DNA from: Butyrivibrio sp.
Lineage (GTDB): Bacteria > Bacillota > Clostridia > Lachnospirales > Lachnospiraceae
NCBI RefSeq assembly: GCF_017635265.1
Contig: NZ_JAGBLU010000091.1
Span: 151,857-215,856, forward strand
DNA length: 64,000 bases
Direction of reading: 5' to 3'
The first letter of the stretch is position 1. Each line of letters opens with the position of its first letter. Of the stretch, positions 5,067 to 43,633 are shown piece by piece. Both the position numbers and the translations under genes were made by a program. Below the pieces are notes generated by a model, which ran no database searches, was not told the origin of the DNA, and worked only from the letters and a program-made list of their open reading frames with translations.

Positions 5067-6785
5067 ATGAGGAAAAAAGTTTTATCATTGTTACTTGCAT
5101 CTGCGATGACACTTTCACTTGCAGCATGCGGTAGCCAGGGTGGCGAGCAGGCAACTTCAGAGACGCCTGCAGCTTCAGAAACACCTGCAGCAGAGGCAGA
5201 AACTGCTCAGGCTGACACAGCAACAGAACCAGCAGTTGCTTCAGAACTTACAGATGGTAAGTTCGCAGACACAAGACACATCACAGTTGAGGTTTATGAT
5301 CGTGGTAACGACGGCGGATCAGACCCAACAAACAACGTGTACACAGACTACATCAAGAAAGGAATGCTCGAGAAGCACAACGTAGAAGTTGAGTTCGTAG
5401 CAGTTCCTCGTTGGACAGAGGTTGATGAGATCAACAACCTTCTTGCTGGCGGTACAGCTCCTGATGTATGTGTAACTTATTCTTATCCAACAATCAAGAC
5501 ATATGCTGACATGGGCGGTGTTCTTGATCTTAGACCTTACATTGATGATTACAAGGATGAACTTCCTAACCTTTGGACATGGCTTGGTGAGTCAAACCTT
5601 TACTGGGATGCTGATCCTGAGAACGGCCAGACATGGGCTGTAGAGGCAAAGCTTGCTAACATGAACAGAATTCTTACATTCGTTCGTAAGGACTGGCTTG
5701 ATAAGCTTGGTCTTGCTGAACCTACAACAAAGCAGGAGTTCCATGACATGCTCGTAGCATTCAAGGACAATGCTAGCGAACTTCTTGGAGCAGACGCTGA
5801 CAAGATGGTTCCTTACTCAGTTTCTTACGATGTAGGTTGGAGAGCTGGTACTCTTATCGAGTCTTTCATTGACCCAGATATTTCTGACAAAGAGTTCTAT
5901 GTAAACGGCTTCGATGACAGAAAGCTTACACAGAACGGAACAAAGGAAGCAGTTAAGCTTCTTAACCAGTGGTACAACGAAGGCCTTATGTGGAATGACT
6001 TCGCTATCTACGGATCAGGCGATACAACAGAAGATGACATGATGAAGGCTGGTTATGTTGGCGCATTCACACACAACTGGGATTATCCTTTCAGAAACGG
6101 TGAGGATTCAATCCAGGCTAACCTTAAGAGACTTGTAGGCGAAGACGCTAAGTACGTAGCAATCGATCCATTCGAAGACAAAAACGGAACACACAACAAG
6201 TTCCTTGCAGGTCCTATCGACCGTAAGATTTTCTTCCCTGCAACAAACGATGAGCCTCTTGCATCAATGCTTTACCTTGATTTTATTTCAGATCCTGAGA
6301 CAATACAGTTCTTGCAGCTTGGCGAAGAAGGCGTTACATGCAACAAGCTTGATGATGGTGGATATGAAATCGTTGCAGCAACAGGTGATGCAATCCAGAA
6401 CTCCGGTATGAATATTGACTACACAATCACATGTAATGGTCTTCACCTTACATCCGATGACCTTACAGAGAAGACTCTTGCTCACTCATATGCAGGAATC
6501 GATGTTGAGGATGTAATCAAGGCTAATGAGATTGCAAAGACAGATACAAGAATCGGTATCAACGTTAAGACCGGTGACATCGAGGCAGAAGGCGGCGTAG
6601 GTGATACACTTTCAGCTAAGAGAGATCAGATTTATGATCAGGCTATGAGCGCAAGTGTAGACGCATTCGAATCTGTTTGGGATGAGGGTGTTGCTGATTA
6701 CCTTGGTTCAGGCGGACAGGCTATCATTGATGAGAGAACTCAGAAATGGGAAGCTACATACGGCGATGCCGAGAATATCAGATAA
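5067..6785 (+). CDS. Extracellular sugar-binding lipoprotein of ABC importer
   Basis: This is the substrate-binding component for the two permeases upstream, anchored on the outer face of the membrane. The N-terminus is a lipoprotein signal (MRKKVLSLLLASAMTLSLAAC) with lipobox LAAC and lipidated Cys21. An Ala/Glu/Thr-rich linker runs to about residue 60, followed by a family-1-type solute-binding fold; the total of 572 residues matches the large LipO/YtcQ group. GGAGG stands ahead of the ATG. The coding sequence is rich in favoured codons, consistent with high expression. Ligand inferred to be a xylan oligosaccharide only from the neighbouring GH67 gene. Confidence 0.92.
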   Translation: MRKKVLSLLLASAMTLSLAACGSQGGEQATSETPAASETPAAEAETAQADTATEPAVASELTDGKFADTRHITVEVYDRGNDGGSDPTNNVYTDYIKKGMLEKHNVEVEFVAVPRWTEVDEINNLLAGGTAPDVCVTYSYPTIKTYADMGGVLDLRPYIDDYKDELPNLWTWLGESNLYWDADPENGQTWAVEAKLANMNRILTFVRKDWLDKLGLAEPTTKQEFHDMLVAFKDNASELLGADADKMVPYSVSYDVGWRAGTLIESFIDPDISDKEFYVNGFDDRKLTQNGTKEAVKLLNQWYNEGLMWNDFAIYGSGDTTEDDMMKAGYVGAFTHNWDYPFRNGEDSIQANLKRLVGEDAKYVAIDPFEDKNGTHNKFLAGPIDRKIFFPATNDEPLASMLYLDFISDPETIQFLQLGEEGVTCNKLDDGGYEIVAATGDAIQNSGMNIDYTITCNGLHLTSDDLTEKTLAHSYAGIDVEDVIKANEIAKTDTRIGINVKTGDIEAEGGVGDTLSAKRDQIYDQAMSASVDAFESVWDEGVADYLGSGGQAIIDERTQKWEATYGDAENIR

Positions 6786-31551: not shown

Positions 31552-32922
31552 ATGAAGAAAACAAGTAATATAAAAGATTTAACAGTTGGAAATCCAATGT
31601 CACTTATTTTTGGCTTTGCCCTTTCATTGTTCTGGGGAATGCTTTTTCAGCAGTTATACAACATCATAGATACTGCGATAGTTTCATGGTTTTTGGGAAA
31701 AGAGGCATACACCGGAATGGGTACAACCGGTGCCGTGAACTTTTTAATAATGGGCTTTTGCATGGGTGTCTGTAACGGATTTGCAATTCCTGTTGCACAA
31801 AGATTCGGAGCAAAAGACTATAAGAGCATGAGAAAATTCGTATCTCATGCAATTATTCTTTGCTCTGTATTTGCCGTAGTGATGACATTTTTTGTCAGCG
31901 TTTTCTGTAGACAGATTCTTGTTGTTATGAAGACTCCTGAAGACGTATTTGAATATGCTTATCAGTATATTATTGTAATTTTCCTTGGAATACCTGTTAC
32001 ATATATGTACAACCTTTTATCAGGCATAATAAGAGCACTTGGAGATTCAAAGCACCCTGTTGAATATCTTATTATTGCATCAGTTCTTAATATCATACTT
32101 GACCTTGTATTTATTCTTCCTCTTAACTGGGGAATTTTCGGAGCCGCTTTTGCAACAGTTATATCTCAGTTTGCGGCAGGACTTATGTGTTTGATATTCA
32201 TTATCAAAAAGATAGATATTCTTCATCTTAAGAAAGAAGACTGGGAGCTTGACAGAGATCATTTCCTGATTCTGTTTAATATGGGGGTTCCTATGGGACT
32301 TCAGTATTCCATAACAGCAATTGGCAGTGTTATCCTTCAGACTGCTATCAATGCCCTTGGAACAGATGCGGCAGCTGCTGTCACAACCGGAAGTAAGGTG
32401 GGAATGTTCTTCTGTATCCCGTTTGATGCCCTTGGATCGACTATGGCAACTTACGGTGGTCAGAATGTGGGAGCCAAAAAGCTTGATCACTTACAGCAGG
32501 GGCTTATGGCAGCAGTTAAACTCGGTTGCGGCTATGCCATCCTTGCGTTCATAGTTCTTGCATTATTTGGAAGGCAGTTTTCAATGATATTCCTTGATGC
32601 AGGAGAAGCAGCCTGTCTTGACAATGCTCATATGTTCCTTTTCTACAACAGTATGTTCTACATTCCGCTGGCATTGGTCAACATAGTACGTTTCCTTATT
32701 CAGGGCATGGGCTTTTCGATGTTTGCCGTTCTTGCCGGAGTTATGGAGATGATAGGCCGAAGTGTTGTAGCAGTACTGCTTGTACCCCGATTTGGCTTCA
32801 TAGCAATATGTCTCGCATCACCAGCAGCCTGGATTCTCGCAGACATCTTCCTTATCCCCGCTTTCATCATGGTAAGGAACAAGCTCCGCAGGATCTTCAG
32901 TGGTCAGGTGGAAATCTATTGA
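31552..32922 (+). CDS. MATE-family multidrug/cation exporter
   Basis: A 456-residue membrane protein with about 12 helices in two matching halves, typical of MATE exporters (GNPMSLIFGFALSLFWGMLF near the N-terminus; second half from about 235, MGVPMGLQYSITAIGSVILQ). It exports drugs or metabolites against Na+ or H+ entry. The gene is single, with its own upstream gap of 220 bp, and it ends only 8 bp before the 634-bp palindrome. Substrate unknown. Confidence 0.92.
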   Translation: MKKTSNIKDLTVGNPMSLIFGFALSLFWGMLFQQLYNIIDTAIVSWFLGKEAYTGMGTTGAVNFLIMGFCMGVCNGFAIPVAQRFGAKDYKSMRKFVSHAIILCSVFAVVMTFFVSVFCRQILVVMKTPEDVFEYAYQYIIVIFLGIPVTYMYNLLSGIIRALGDSKHPVEYLIIASVLNIILDLVFILPLNWGIFGAAFATVISQFAAGLMCLIFIIKKIDILHLKKEDWELDRDHFLILFNMGVPMGLQYSITAIGSVILQTAINALGTDAAAAVTTGSKVGMFFCIPFDALGSTMATYGGQNVGAKKLDHLQQGLMAAVKLGCGYAILAFIVLALFGRQFSMIFLDAGEAACLDNAHMFLFYNSMFYIPLALVNIVRFLIQGMGFSMFAVLAGVMEMIGRSVVAVLLVPRFGFIAICLASPAAWILADIFLIPAFIMVRNKLRRIFSGQVEIY

Positions 32923-32930
32923 TTATGCCT

Positions 32931-33564
32931 GCCGGCCTCCAGACTTGGAGCACAGCCCCCGGAGGTAGCCATTTGCATATCATTTCGAGTTTAGAAGTTT
33001 ATGGCATCAAATTTTTGTTTGTAAATACCTTGGATCAAACTCGCCACCGGGCGCTTGCACTTTTGGAACTGTGAGCTTTGCTTTTTCTCCGTTACAAGAA
33101 AACGTCATTTTCCGGTGCTCAAAGGCAGCTTTGATCAGCGCATGCGAAGCGTTGTTTGAGCAGGGCGTTAAAATAATAAGAACAGATAGTCTTGCCCGCT
33201 GTGCGGGCATTTGGACAAAAAAAGAAGTTACTCCCCAAACTGGTTTGGGAGAAAACTTCTTTTTTTATGTCCAAGGTGCGTAGCACCAATGACTATCTGT
33301 TCTTATTATTTAGCCCTGCGAGTTTTAGCTGCAGCATGCGCATTAAAGAAAAAGATGCCTGAGCACTTGGAAAAGTTTCGTTTTCTTGGCCGGAGAAAAA
33401 TGAAGCTGCACAGTTCCTAAAAGTGCATAGAGCCGGTGGCTCAAACATGTGATCCAAAAGCGGTATTTACAAACGAAAATTTAAATGCTCATAAACTTAA
33501 CTAAACTCTCTCAAACATGCAAAAGGCTACCTCCGGGGGCTGTGCTCCAAGTCTGGAGGCCGGC
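32931..33564. repeat. 634-bp near-complete palindrome between convergent genes
   Basis: The outer 40 bp at 32931-32970 (begins GCCGGCCTCCAGACTTGGAG) are the exact reverse complement of 33525-33564. Both arms then stay alignable to the centre, with indels and substitutions; blocks include GTTTGTAAATACC, AAGAAAACG, and a perfect 20-bp pair at 33172-33191 and 33291-33310. Near the centre each arm holds its own small hairpin: GCCCGC/GCGGGC (33194-33208) on the left and GGTGC/GCACC (33275-33287) on the right, differing in sequence but not in position. It fills the space between the MATE and GH2 stops. TTATG occurs just outside both ends (32923-32927, 33570-33574), possibly a 5-bp target duplication. 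No gene. Confidence 0.93.
33212..33273. terminator. Central hairpin of palindrome, bidirectional terminator-like
   Basis: TTGGACAAAAAAAGAAGTT pairs with AACTTCTTTTTTTATGTCCA, capped by CCCAAAC/GTTTGGG. A-tract on one side and T-tract on the other allow termination on both strands between the convergent MATE and GH2 genes. Confidence 0.7.
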
Positions 33565-33569
33565 AAGGG

Positions 33570-35495
33570 TTATGAGTTGATGCCGCTTGTCATGTTGGGA
33601 TCAATGTCGGGGTTAATCTTGGTGATTTTGCGGTCGTAGGTCATGAGACCGTTGACTTCCTCTTCGACATCGGAGACCTGAGTGTATACGGCTCCAGCAA
33701 GACCCTTTGGTATGAGGGGCTTTAGGGAGGCATTGATGAGGTTGTAGTAGGCAACGCCAAGTTTATCTAAGTTGTCATATTTTTTGTAGCCATAGACACG
33801 ATCGACGCTGGAGTGACCATCTATGTGGCAGGTAAAGCCGCCATATTCCGATATGACAAAGGCACGATTTTTTTTGTCTTCTTCAACTGTAAGAGGACGG
33901 AAGTAGTTGTGAACACTTCTATAGTCGCCGCTTCCCTCGTCAAACCATCCGCTGGCCTGATCTACGGGGCGGGAATGGTCAAGTTCTTTTGCCATAATCG
34001 TGGCACCGGCAGCATTGAACTGTCCCCAACCTTCGTTGAAAAGAACCCACGTTGCGATTGATGGAACATTAAAGAGATACCTTATGGTGTTCTGCATTTC
34101 ATCAAGCCACTCTCTGCGCCCATCTGCTGACCCGCGAGAGAATGTCTTGTAGTAGGCAGGTCCGTCGCTCATGCGGCCAAAGACCTTCGGAAAAAGTGTT
34201 GGCAGATAAGAAACTACGGGCTTGGCATAGGAAGAGCCGCCGCTAACCATATCCTGCCAGACAATCATGCCAAGTCTGTCACAGTGATAGTACCAGCGGG
34301 CGCATTCTATCTTTATATGCTTGCGCATCATGTTGAAATGAAGGCGCTTCATCTCCGTAATATCGTAGATAAGGGCGTCGTCAGAAGGTGCTGTATAAAG
34401 CCCGTCCGGCCAGTAGCCCTGATCCAGAACACCCATGAGAAAGTAGGGGTGTCCGTTTAAATGGAATCTTGTTTTCCCTCTGTCATCTGGCCTTACTTCA
34501 AAAGAGCGCATGGCAAAGTAGGAACTTACATTATCATCTTCACACGTAATCTGAAGCGGATACAGATATGGATCTTCAGGTGTCCAAAGATGAGGATTTT
34601 CAATATTAAACTTAAAGCTGTAATATGATGGAGCAACAGCAGAGTGATCTATACCGATCGATGGAAATGTATCTGATGAAAAAGAATAGTCTCCACTAAA
34701 ACAGGTTCCGGGAGGAACATCGGAGGCCGGTGATTTCACAAGCTCATAGCCCGGTATTTTTACGGTGACGGAGGCTTTTTTGTTTGTGGCAACTTCAACA
34801 GTTACAGAGTGTAGATCAGTCCCGGGATGAATCTTTATTTCTCTTATATAGACTTCAGGAACCTCTTCAATCCACACAGTCTGCCATATTCCGCTTTGGG
34901 CAGTATAATACATTCCGCCTCTTTTCAGGGTTTGCTTGCCACGACTGTGATAAGATGAGTCGCTGGTATCACGAACACGCAAATAGAGAGTATTAGAGGT
35001 AGTAACAAGTTTATTTTCCGTGTAATTAAGATAATCTGTAATGTCTATGGTAAAAGGCAGATATCCACCGCTGTGTGAACCTATCAGAGCGTCATTTATA
35101 AATATATCAGCAAACTGGTCCACTGCACCAAAATGTAGTAAAATCCTTGCAGTTGGAGTTTTTCTTGTTATAACGGGAAGCTTTTTTTTGTACCAGAGAA
35201 GCTGATCGGGAAGAAGCCTTTTTTCAACACCTGAAAGCATTGCTTCAGGCGAAAATGGCACAAGGATGTTCCCTTCCATAACGGAGGGAATTTCATCTCG
35301 TGAATTAACAGGAGTAAAAAGATATTCCCAATAGCCGTTTAAGTTAATGAAACTATCGCGGACAAATTGGGGACGGGGATACTCTTTTAGAAGATTGTCT
35401 GGATCAACGTTTTCACCCCATGTAGTGTAGAGTCTGTTTAGAATGTCGTCCTCATGGGGCTTATCGATTGCTTTGATTGCATCAATTAAGTCCAT
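33570..35495 (-). CDS. GH2-family glycoside hydrolase
   Basis: A second, divergent GH2 enzyme of 641 residues. A jelly-roll domain (about 45-190), a beta-sandwich (about 215-335) and the catalytic barrel follow, with acid/base Glu488 in LFNEGWGQF and nucleophile Glu550 in VISEYGGF. It has an N-terminal extension of about 40 residues with RPQFVRDSFINLNGYW, typical of GH2 members from gut Firmicutes and Bacteroidetes whose substrates are poorly known. No signal peptide. It lies 14 bp downstream of the DUF975-like gene on the minus strand, so it may be in one transcript with the three small genes before it. Substrate unknown. Confidence 0.88.
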   Translation of the reverse strand: MDLIDAIKAIDKPHEDDILNRLYTTWGENVDPDNLLKEYPRPQFVRDSFINLNGYWEYLFTPVNSRDEIPSVMEGNILVPFSPEAMLSGVEKRLLPDQLLWYKKKLPVITRKTPTARILLHFGAVDQFADIFINDALIGSHSGGYLPFTIDITDYLNYTENKLVTTSNTLYLRVRDTSDSSYHSRGKQTLKRGGMYYTAQSGIWQTVWIEEVPEVYIREIKIHPGTDLHSVTVEVATNKKASVTVKIPGYELVKSPASDVPPGTCFSGDYSFSSDTFPSIGIDHSAVAPSYYSFKFNIENPHLWTPEDPYLYPLQITCEDDNVSSYFAMRSFEVRPDDRGKTRFHLNGHPYFLMGVLDQGYWPDGLYTAPSDDALIYDITEMKRLHFNMMRKHIKIECARWYYHCDRLGMIVWQDMVSGGSSYAKPVVSYLPTLFPKVFGRMSDGPAYYKTFSRGSADGRREWLDEMQNTIRYLFNVPSIATWVLFNEGWGQFNAAGATIMAKELDHSRPVDQASGWFDEGSGDYRSVHNYFRPLTVEEDKKNRAFVISEYGGFTCHIDGHSSVDRVYGYKKYDNLDKLGVAYYNLINASLKPLIPKGLAGAVYTQVSDVEEEVNGLMTYDRKITKINPDIDPNMTSGINS

Positions 35496-41965: not shown

Positions 41966-42091
41966 GTTCTCTTATTCAGAGTGGTGGAGGTACATAGGAC
42001 CTAAGAAGCCACGGCAACCCCTTGATCAGTCAGGAAGGTGCCAACCTGAGCGTGCAATTCCGAGTTTCGGACTACGAGCAATAAGAGGAAC
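41966..42091 (+). promoter_or_regulatory. SAM-I (S-box) riboswitch aptamer
   Basis: The leader carries the S-box core: TTATTCAGAGTGGTGGAGG, the AGAAGCCACGGCAACC segment, GGTGCCAACCTGAG, GTGCAATTCC and a closing AATAAGAGGAAC. P1 forms between 41966-41976 and 42080-42091. Binding of S-adenosylmethionine favours the terminator that follows, shutting off metK when SAM is plentiful. Confidence 0.93.
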
Positions 42092-42159: not shown

Positions 42160-42410
42160 GCACTTGATGAGTTTTTTTCGAATCTAGTGCGAACCACTTC
42201 TGTACACTTAACTAGTGTAGCTGTTTTATATTAACTCGACTATATGCTTGCTATAATTTGAATCTACTACGTTGTCATCAGTCGTCGATGGACGCCCATC
42301 GACTCCATCTTCCGCCTTGTAGATTGCAAATTATATCTAAGCAATATAGTCGAGAAATATAAAAACAGCCACACTAGGTTATTTCGAGTTTAGTGTAGCA
42401 GAAGAATCAT
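42160..42410. repeat. Palindromic element and flanking motif copies in metK leader
   Basis: An imperfect inverted repeat spans 42208-42381: TAGTGTAGCTGTTTTATATT, then CTCGACTATAT, TATAATTTG and ATCTAC on the left are mirrored on the right by the complement. The centre holds a small hairpin (TCGATGG and CCATCGA, 42285-42302). Outside it, the dispersed motif appears on both sides in the same orientation: CACTTGATGAG...TCGAATCTAGTG at about 42170-42190 and CACACTAGGTT...TCGAGTTTAGTG at about 42370-42394, the latter followed by TAGCAGAAGA. No gene. If transcribed it would fold into one long hairpin between the riboswitch terminator and metK. Confidence 0.8.
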
Positions 42411-42442: not shown

Positions 42443-43633
42443 ATGGATAAATTTATTTTTACATCAGAATCAGTAACAGAAGGACATCCTGATAAGATAT
42501 GCGATAACATTTCTGATGCAATTCTTGACGCATGCATGGAGCAGGATCCTATGAGCCGTGTTGCCTGTGAGACAGCAACATGTACAGGATTTGTTCTTAT
42601 AACAGGTGAGATTACAACAAAGGCTCACGTTGATTATGCGGGAATTGCCCGTAAGACAATCAAAGAGATTGGATATGATGATTCAGCCAAGGGATTTGAC
42701 GGAAATACATGTGCGGTACTTGTTGCGCTTGATCAGCAGTCAGCTGATATTGCCATGGGTGTTGACAAGGCACTTGAGGCAAGAGAGAACCAGATGACTG
42801 ATGAGCAGATTGAAGCAATCGGTGCCGGTGATCAGGGCATGATGTTTGGTTACGCTACAAACGAGACAGACGATTATATGCCATATGCTATAAGCCTTGC
42901 ACACAAGCTTACCAAGAAGCTTACAGAGGTCAGAAAAAACGGAACTCTTCCATATCTTAGAGCAGATGGAAAGAGCCAGGTATCAGTTGAGTATGATGAG
43001 AACGGAAAGGTAAAAAGACTTGAAGCAATCGTTATTTCTACTCAGCATGATGAGAAGGTTACTCAGGAGCAGATTCACACAGATATCAGAAAGTATGTTA
43101 TAGATACAGTTGTAGACAGTGCTATGGTAGATGCTAACACCAAGATTTACATCAATCCGACAGGCCGTTTCGTAATCGGCGGACCTCAGGGTGATGCAGG
43201 ACTTACAGGTCGTAAGATCATCGTTGACACTTACGGCGGAGCAGCTCGTCATGGCGGCGGAGCATTTTCCGGTAAAGACTGCACAAAGGTTGACCGTTCT
43301 GCAGCATATGCAGCAAGATATGTTGCCAAGAATATCGTTGCAGCCGGCCTTGCAGATAAGGCTGAAATCCAGCTTTCATATGCAATCGGTGTTGCACAGC
43401 CTACATCAATTCTTGTAGATACCTTCGGAACCGGTAAGGTTTCTGATGAGAAGCTTACAGAGGCAGTTCGTAAGGTGTTCGATCTTCGTCCGGCAGGAAT
43501 AATCAAGATGCTCGATCTTCGCCGTCCAATCTACAAGCAGACAGCTGCTTACGGACACTTCGGCCGCAACGACCTCAACCTTCCTTGGGAGCAGACTGAC
43601 AAGGTAGAAGAGCTTAAGGCAGCAGTTCAATAA
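42443..43633 (+). CDS. metK: S-adenosylmethionine synthetase
   Basis: MetK makes SAM from methionine and ATP. The 396-residue protein carries the full family set: [20 protein letters not shown] at the N-terminus, [16 protein letters not shown] in the middle and [22 protein letters not shown] later. It is complete with an AGAAAGG ribosome site. Expression is under the SAM riboswitch about 350 bp upstream, and the leader also contains a palindromic element. A terminator follows. Confidence 0.97.

Follow-up and report, generated by a model that had tools for sequence, protein, structure and literature searches.

A dispersed family of long imperfect palindromes in Butyrivibrio, probably non-autonomous transposons moved in trans by an IS66-type transposase

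Long palindromes in bacterial DNA are expected to be cut and lost. The 64,000-nucleotide stretch of Butyrivibrio sp. DNA analysed here (the window, on contig NZ_JAGBLU010000091.1) carries one of more than 600 bp that fills the junction between two convergent genes, and the question raised by this locus is what such a sequence is and how it came to lie there. The explanation which we consider probable is that the window palindrome belongs to a family of MITE-like DNA transposons of Butyrivibrio that are non-autonomous, are built over their whole length as an imperfect inverted repeat and are moved in trans by an IS66-type transposase.

The palindrome at the MATE/GH2 junction

Self-alignment established that the palindrome exists as described in the initial annotation and that its actual span is 32930-33565, one further base pair at each end. 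The features of the locus are as follows.

31552..32922, plus strand: MATE transporter, flanking host gene (Pfam MatE, E 3.5e-37)
32930..33565, no strand assigned: whole giant-hairpin element, imperfect palindrome of 636 bp (self-alignment, fold, family members)
32931..32970, plus strand: left outer arm, 40 nt, pairs perfectly with 33525-33564 (self-alignment)
32971..33170, plus strand: left core arm, homologous and orientation-specific in further copies (copy comparison)
33140..33146, plus strand: conserved GCATGCG, left (copy comparison)
33171..33191, plus strand: inner arm, 21 nt, pairs perfectly with 33291-33311 (self-alignment)
33193..33209, plus strand: tip side hairpin B, GCCCGC...GCGGGC (sequence, fold, copy comparison)
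33217..33266, plus strand: central tip hairpin with an A-tract before and a T-tract after, giving the look of a two-way terminator (terminator scan negative)
33275..33287, plus strand: tip side hairpin C, GGTGC...GCACC (sequence, fold, copy comparison)
33291..33311, plus strand: inner arm, 21 nt, pairs perfectly with 33171-33191 (self-alignment)
33312..33524, plus strand: right core arm, homologous and orientation-specific in further copies (copy comparison)
33334..33347, plus strand: conserved GCATGCG(C/T)ATTAAA, right, with variants in some copies (copy comparison)
33525..33564, plus strand: right outer arm, 40 nt, pairs perfectly with 32931-32970 (self-alignment)
33570..35495, minus strand: glycoside hydrolase family 2 (GH2), flanking host gene (Pfam Glyco_hydro_2)

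The 40-bp outer repeats proved perfect in the self-alignment, and the arms, which had been described as alignable along about 300 bp each, showed 256 identities over 286 aligned positions together with 62 gap positions; the perfect inner pair, previously given as 20 bp, in fact matches at 21 of 21 positions. The distances of 8 bp to the MATE stop and 5 bp to the GH2 stop were also correct, as the MATE reading frame ends at 32922 and that of GH2 at 33570. The two arms of the central hairpin (33217-33240 and 33243-33266) match at 83%. The predicted fold of the palindrome has an energy of -380.9 kcal/mol as compared to -175.1 +/- 5.7 kcal/mol for 20 shuffled sequences (z -36), and its best inverted self-match scores 278 bits, against a maximum of 38 bits among 20 windows simulated as a first-order chain. 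The window palindrome is genuine and not a product of chance. An assembly artefact would be next to impossible: contigs do often break within these palindromes (L069, and the contig ends at L296/L301), by which token the copy counts given below are probably lower bounds, but diverged homologous palindromes are present in many assemblies and in a 3.55-Mb contig of genome G006, and these show that the palindrome of the window is not an error of assembly.

The suggestion that the element is more than a simple terminator was borne out. The description of its centre as terminator-like is owed to the appearance of the A-tract, stem and T-tract only, since a simple consensus scan for intrinsic terminators called none in the palindrome region, though a GC-rich stem and a T-run are visible at the tip. 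In agreement with the earlier remark that no named family was known to fit the sequence, Rfam yielded no match at curated thresholds, the four matches at E <= 10 all falling far below the gathering scores, and collections of phage and plasmid sequences held no match for the element. A direct-repeat family was not found within the palindrome. Four internal open reading frames (56-70 aa) had no Pfam match at E <= 0.1, and the element thus contains no transposase gene, as is characteristic of a MITE. In some copies one stretch reads MRIKEKLHEH, but the coding role that this suggested was rejected, as the reading is interrupted in others, including that of the window, and the reading frames of the window match nothing.

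Two further repeats were observed in the window. A second palindrome of 166 bp (42212-42377) lies between a SAM riboswitch (41969-42087) and a gene at 42443-43633, the product of which we take from its sequence to be S-adenosylmethionine synthetase, and is perhaps the expression platform of the riboswitch. Between 6928 and 7881, inverted repeats are found at 7069-7144/7783-7858 (79%) and at 6928-6955/7854-7881 (96%).

Distribution, anatomy and pairing across copies

The genome under study contains three copies of the palindrome, the other two being approximately 71% identical to that of the window over some 430 bp, while the left outer arm (32931-32970) has no second match in a search of the same genome. 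The search proposed earlier for further copies elsewhere in Butyrivibrio was made by BLAST with the second copy of this genome, which gave matches in 13 of 79 genomes of the genus, its own included. From 19 of 23 tip sequences a covariance model was constructed, which matched 52 of the 79 at E <= 0.001, the weaker of these matches being counted by model score. The matches in one genome numbered up to at least 30, which was every candidate scored, and palindromes often matched on both strands. Among 397 genomes sampled across the taxonomic family the tip model matched 15, including the genome under study and one other of the same genus; the matches in the remaining 13 were mostly weak or restricted to the tip, the strongest being in G322, which was the only genome of another genus inspected in detail (L168, L196-L199), and such weak and tip-only matches outside the genus were excluded from membership. 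The analysed set comprises 51 copies from 25 genomes. These dispersed, imperfect palindromes measure approximately 510-810 bp by self-alignment, and exceed the few hundred bp or less that are typical of MITEs. The literature searched, mainly listings and the openings of abstracts, contained no recognised description of this family.

Individual members depart from the common layout. The element of L065 (= L049), at 5513-6266, carries an additional hairpin-like stretch of about 50 nt in its left arm, and in L059 (5826-6396; = L046) and L060 (5628-6303; = L050) the tip is wholly or partly deleted while the arms are still paired. At L196, L198, L062 and L201, palindromes of the family occur in pairs of opposite orientation, about 0.5-4.2 kb apart.

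The copies share an orientation, the same arms being more alike between copies than opposite arms; L002 and L003, for example, align with 708 bits on the same strand and 187 bits on the opposite strand, and comparison of copies shows that conserved asymmetric loops mark the orientation of the element. The tip is laid out as one central and two side hairpins. When copies are classed roughly by motif, the side hairpin rich in GC lies on the left in 21 and on the right in 10, with 20 of the 51 left unclassed. Paired changes are frequent at the tip, where 27 of 47 pairs had changed on both sides as compared to a mean of 14.7 in shuffles. The proportion of cells that pair there is 92.3%, against 82.9% after shuffling; sliding the partners lowers it to 34-46%, a comparison that favours the tip structure because that structure was derived from the same alignment.

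Such pairing could mean that selection acts on an RNA fold, the element being a structured RNA in the form of a very long terminator or of a double-stranded hairpin. The very stable fold and the paired changes at the tip are in keeping with this, and of the 50 copies mapped, 47 have at least one gene's 3′ end beside them. We consider this reading quite unlikely, as RNA tolerates G.U pairs and not A.C pairs, whereas the isolated arm mismatches counted in 28 chosen copies of the 51 comprised 105 G.T, 113 A.C and 241 others (p 0.64), so that G.T was no commoner than A.C; wobble pairs, counted in 23 copies, numbered 198 on one strand and 188 on the other. Nothing in this balance indicates selection for folding as RNA, and following these tests structured RNA was set aside as the leading explanation. 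Nor, in tandem gene contexts, is there a preferred orientation, the element lying with the genes in 13 cases and against them in 11, and the Rfam result given above also speaks against an RNA of a catalogued kind. The pairing of the arms looks to be a property of the DNA rather than of RNA. The contexts themselves, taken from a crude map of open reading frames for the 50 of 51 copies with both neighbours, were convergent in 23 cases, tandem in 24 and divergent in 3 (raw counts for these copies only). Nine proteins encoded beside copies were tested; seven matched ordinary families of host proteins, and two had no Pfam match.

Insertion sites, end motifs and the candidate transposase

The arrival of the element at its present site was examined in relatives. 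At the MATE-GH2 junction all five relatives inspected lack the element; in them the matched ends of the two genes are about 50-75 bp apart, and a terminator-like hairpin lies in this interval. Such a long palindrome had been proposed to owe its presence either to a function or to a recent arrival, and it is the recent arrival that these five junctions support, the function being conjectural. A second case is L062, where two copies with cores 97% identical occupy sites that are empty in L130, which has short junctions with terminator-like hairpins there; in L131 the corresponding junctions measure about 120 and 195 bp. The outer flanks of the L062 copies are 97% and 96% identical to L130, and the stretch between them is only 83% identical and approximately 1 kb longer in L062, indicating that this region has been altered in other ways too.

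Evidence for the mode of insertion comes from the ends. The sequence GTTAC(T/C)ATTCAC occurs within one mismatch at both ends of 7 of 50 copies examined, the other 43 being without near-intact ends on both sides. Perfect 8-bp target duplications (8/8) flank L066, L067, L206 and L211, with weaker ones at L064 (7/8), L149 (5/8) and L078 (4/8), while an eighth copy found by means of the motif, L246, has 6/8; mismatched control pairs agreed at a mean of 2.0 and a maximum of 4 of 8 positions (n=56). The duplication at L067 is not clean proof, as the sister site, from which the element is absent, has AAAAATGA twice, with the terminator in tandem, and the repeat may therefore predate the insertion; the terminator beside L067 begins with the duplicated AAAAATGA. 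The two copies of L062 lack these ends and are not flanked by a duplication. In the window copy, too, no end motif is recognisable and no duplication is convincing, for which reason its membership rests on its core, and it may be an older or end-altered member of the family. At L252 (1501-1547; G065:C16) a tiny palindrome consists of two end motifs 23 nt apart, with the core absent, and at about position 2480 of L288 a terminator-like hairpin, AAAAATGAGCCCTAACCTCCGTCCCTAGAGCTCATT, occurs twice in tandem at the empty site in G065.

The duplications bear on a further explanation, namely that the hairpin travels in single-stranded form, carried by a transposase of Y1/REP type (RAYT-like) that recognises the stem. 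A hairpin extending over the whole length, with its orientation marked by conserved asymmetric loops, is in keeping with such a carrier, and Y1 proteins of approximately 250-285 aa are encoded in G003, G065, G039, G007 and G009. However, the linear end motifs and the target duplications of 8 bp are indicative of a DDE element, G069, G036, G051 and G050 have matches to the element and no Y1 match at E <= 1e-5, and G010 and G011 have Y1 proteins and no match to the element. This carrier, very unlikely in our estimation, was dropped owing to the lack of a consistent linkage between genomes and to the 8-bp duplications.

The outer arms require separate consideration. The outer 36-42 nt of the L062 copies are mutually unlike, yet are paired within each copy. 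Homology of these arms to the terminators of the empty sites was considered and was not established by the shuffle fractions, which were 0.34 and 0.04 for the first copy against G009, and for the second 0.13 and 0.24 against G009 and 0.009 and 0.06 against G008. The element of L206 occupies precisely the loop position of a hairpin belonging to the host (z -6.9), and this is one way in which outer arms can derive from the host. Loop insertion into host terminators was rejected as a general rule, as only L206 was clear among the nine copies with both ends within two mismatches to which the folding test was applied, the other eight giving z from -1.4 to 1.0, and the locus-specific outer arms are thus explained at one site only.

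It is conceivable, if unlikely, that the palindromes are born at each locus, template switching during replication making or perfecting the arms site by site, and that only the core has spread, for example by gene conversion. The differing outer arms of copies with 97% identical cores fit this account. So does the identity between the window arms of 1.00 in the outer 40 nt as compared to 0.56-0.84 inside, a gradient that is biased because local alignment set the ends, and so does the observation, made in 26 of 74 directed comparisons, that blocks of high identity end where bases are paired, which is not independent evidence, being expected because both copies are paired there anyway. Against it stand the 8-bp duplications of four copies, the conserved asymmetric loops, which escape homogenisation, and the element of L063, which a second species has at the corresponding position (two contigs), conserved outer arms included, from which it follows that such arms, once established, can be stable.

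The earlier proviso that the palindrome might turn out to derive by decay from an insertion sequence already described was answered in part: no protein family was found inside it, while the ends of the best-preserved members are those of some IS66-family elements. The exact 12-bp motif occurs at 15 of 27 loci carrying relatives of one IS66-type transposase and is absent from 12; a shuffled control at the 27 loci gave 16 hits with up to two mismatches, and so bears on inexact matches only. The motif stands at both ends of L305 (3,204 bp, a whole contig) and L307 (3,474 bp). The NCBIfam IS66 transposase model matches L305 at E 2e-57, above its curated cut-off, and L307 (E 1.6e-45) and L310 (E 4.6e-48) below it. 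Neither L307 nor L310 has a duplication (4/8 and 5/8), while L316, a more distant relative with the ends GTTACTGTTCAG, has one of 8/8. Of 20 loci identified through the general IS66 domain PF03050, 19 were without the exact motif. Relatives of the transposase at E <= 1e-20 were present in only 15 of the 79 genomes, and none at this threshold was found in the genome under study or in G003, G006, G009, G065 and G067, all of which carry the element. The genome under study has IS66 transposases of another kind, and sequences resembling the ends of L307 are present at contig ends in G009, making an unassembled IS66 copy possible there. A separate IS66-like element with the ends GTTACAGTTCAGACCCTA was observed in several copies in one genome (G001; L283-L287).

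On the preferred explanation, an IS66-type transposase would cut at the GTTAC(T/C)ATTCAC ends and move the element in trans. The element would come to lie mainly where genes end (3′), next to a terminator hairpin or, in one clear case, within it, and its own central hairpin may there keep transcription stopped.

Comparison with known systems and implications

Passages of a published account of prokaryotic MITEs (PMC10969869) describe them as non-coding, often intergenic elements with terminal inverted repeats and target duplications, which fold into stem-loops and are mobilised in trans by a related insertion sequence, and include terminator-like members such as SPRITE; those named there measure approximately 150-235 bp, and the term IS66 is absent from its main text. 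Compared with the MITEs of that account, the Butyrivibrio palindromes differ in their length, their whole-length pairing, their conserved tip and their genus-wide paired changes. With the IS66 family (NCBIfam NF033517; Pfam PF03050/PF13005) some of them share the 12-bp ends that occur in some elements of the genus and the 8-bp duplication seen in the related L316. The IS66 elements measured here are unlike the palindromes in being approximately 2.2-3.5 kb long and in encoding a transposase, and as no protein family was found in the window palindrome, the palindromes can at most be non-autonomous relatives of IS66.

Foldback-type transposons of eukaryotes consist almost wholly of long inverted repeats, as does the present element, which differs in being bacterial, in its ends and in having no direct-repeat family. 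REP/BIME sequences associated with RAYT are likewise intergenic palindromes often near terminators, but the Butyrivibrio palindromes are far longer, have 8-bp duplications in some copies and show no consistent link to Y1. The attC sites of integrons conserve hairpin structure over sequence and use asymmetric unpaired bases to set orientation, and resemble the present family in both respects, while size and duplications set the latter apart. The family is unusual in its size, its pairing over the whole length, the tip hairpins that swap sides and the paired changes across copies.

A more far-reaching form of the transposon reading, which we put forward tentatively and rate as the less likely form, would have the element maintained as a DNA-level hairpin: selection on the folded single strand or cruciform, and not on RNA, would keep its 220-320 base pairs by means of paired changes, the tip would resemble a junction with inverting side hairpins, and the outer stems would stem from, or be shaped by, the host terminator hairpin that was entered, making the element a movable extension of a terminator hairpin.

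The palindrome family may explain some of the assembly breaks in Butyrivibrio. A palindrome of 500-800 bp that persists, spreads and stays paired across the genus despite sequence change provides a natural test system for the tolerance of long hairpins by the cell, and also for selection on folds of DNA, as distinct from RNA, and for mobilisation in trans by IS66-type transposases.
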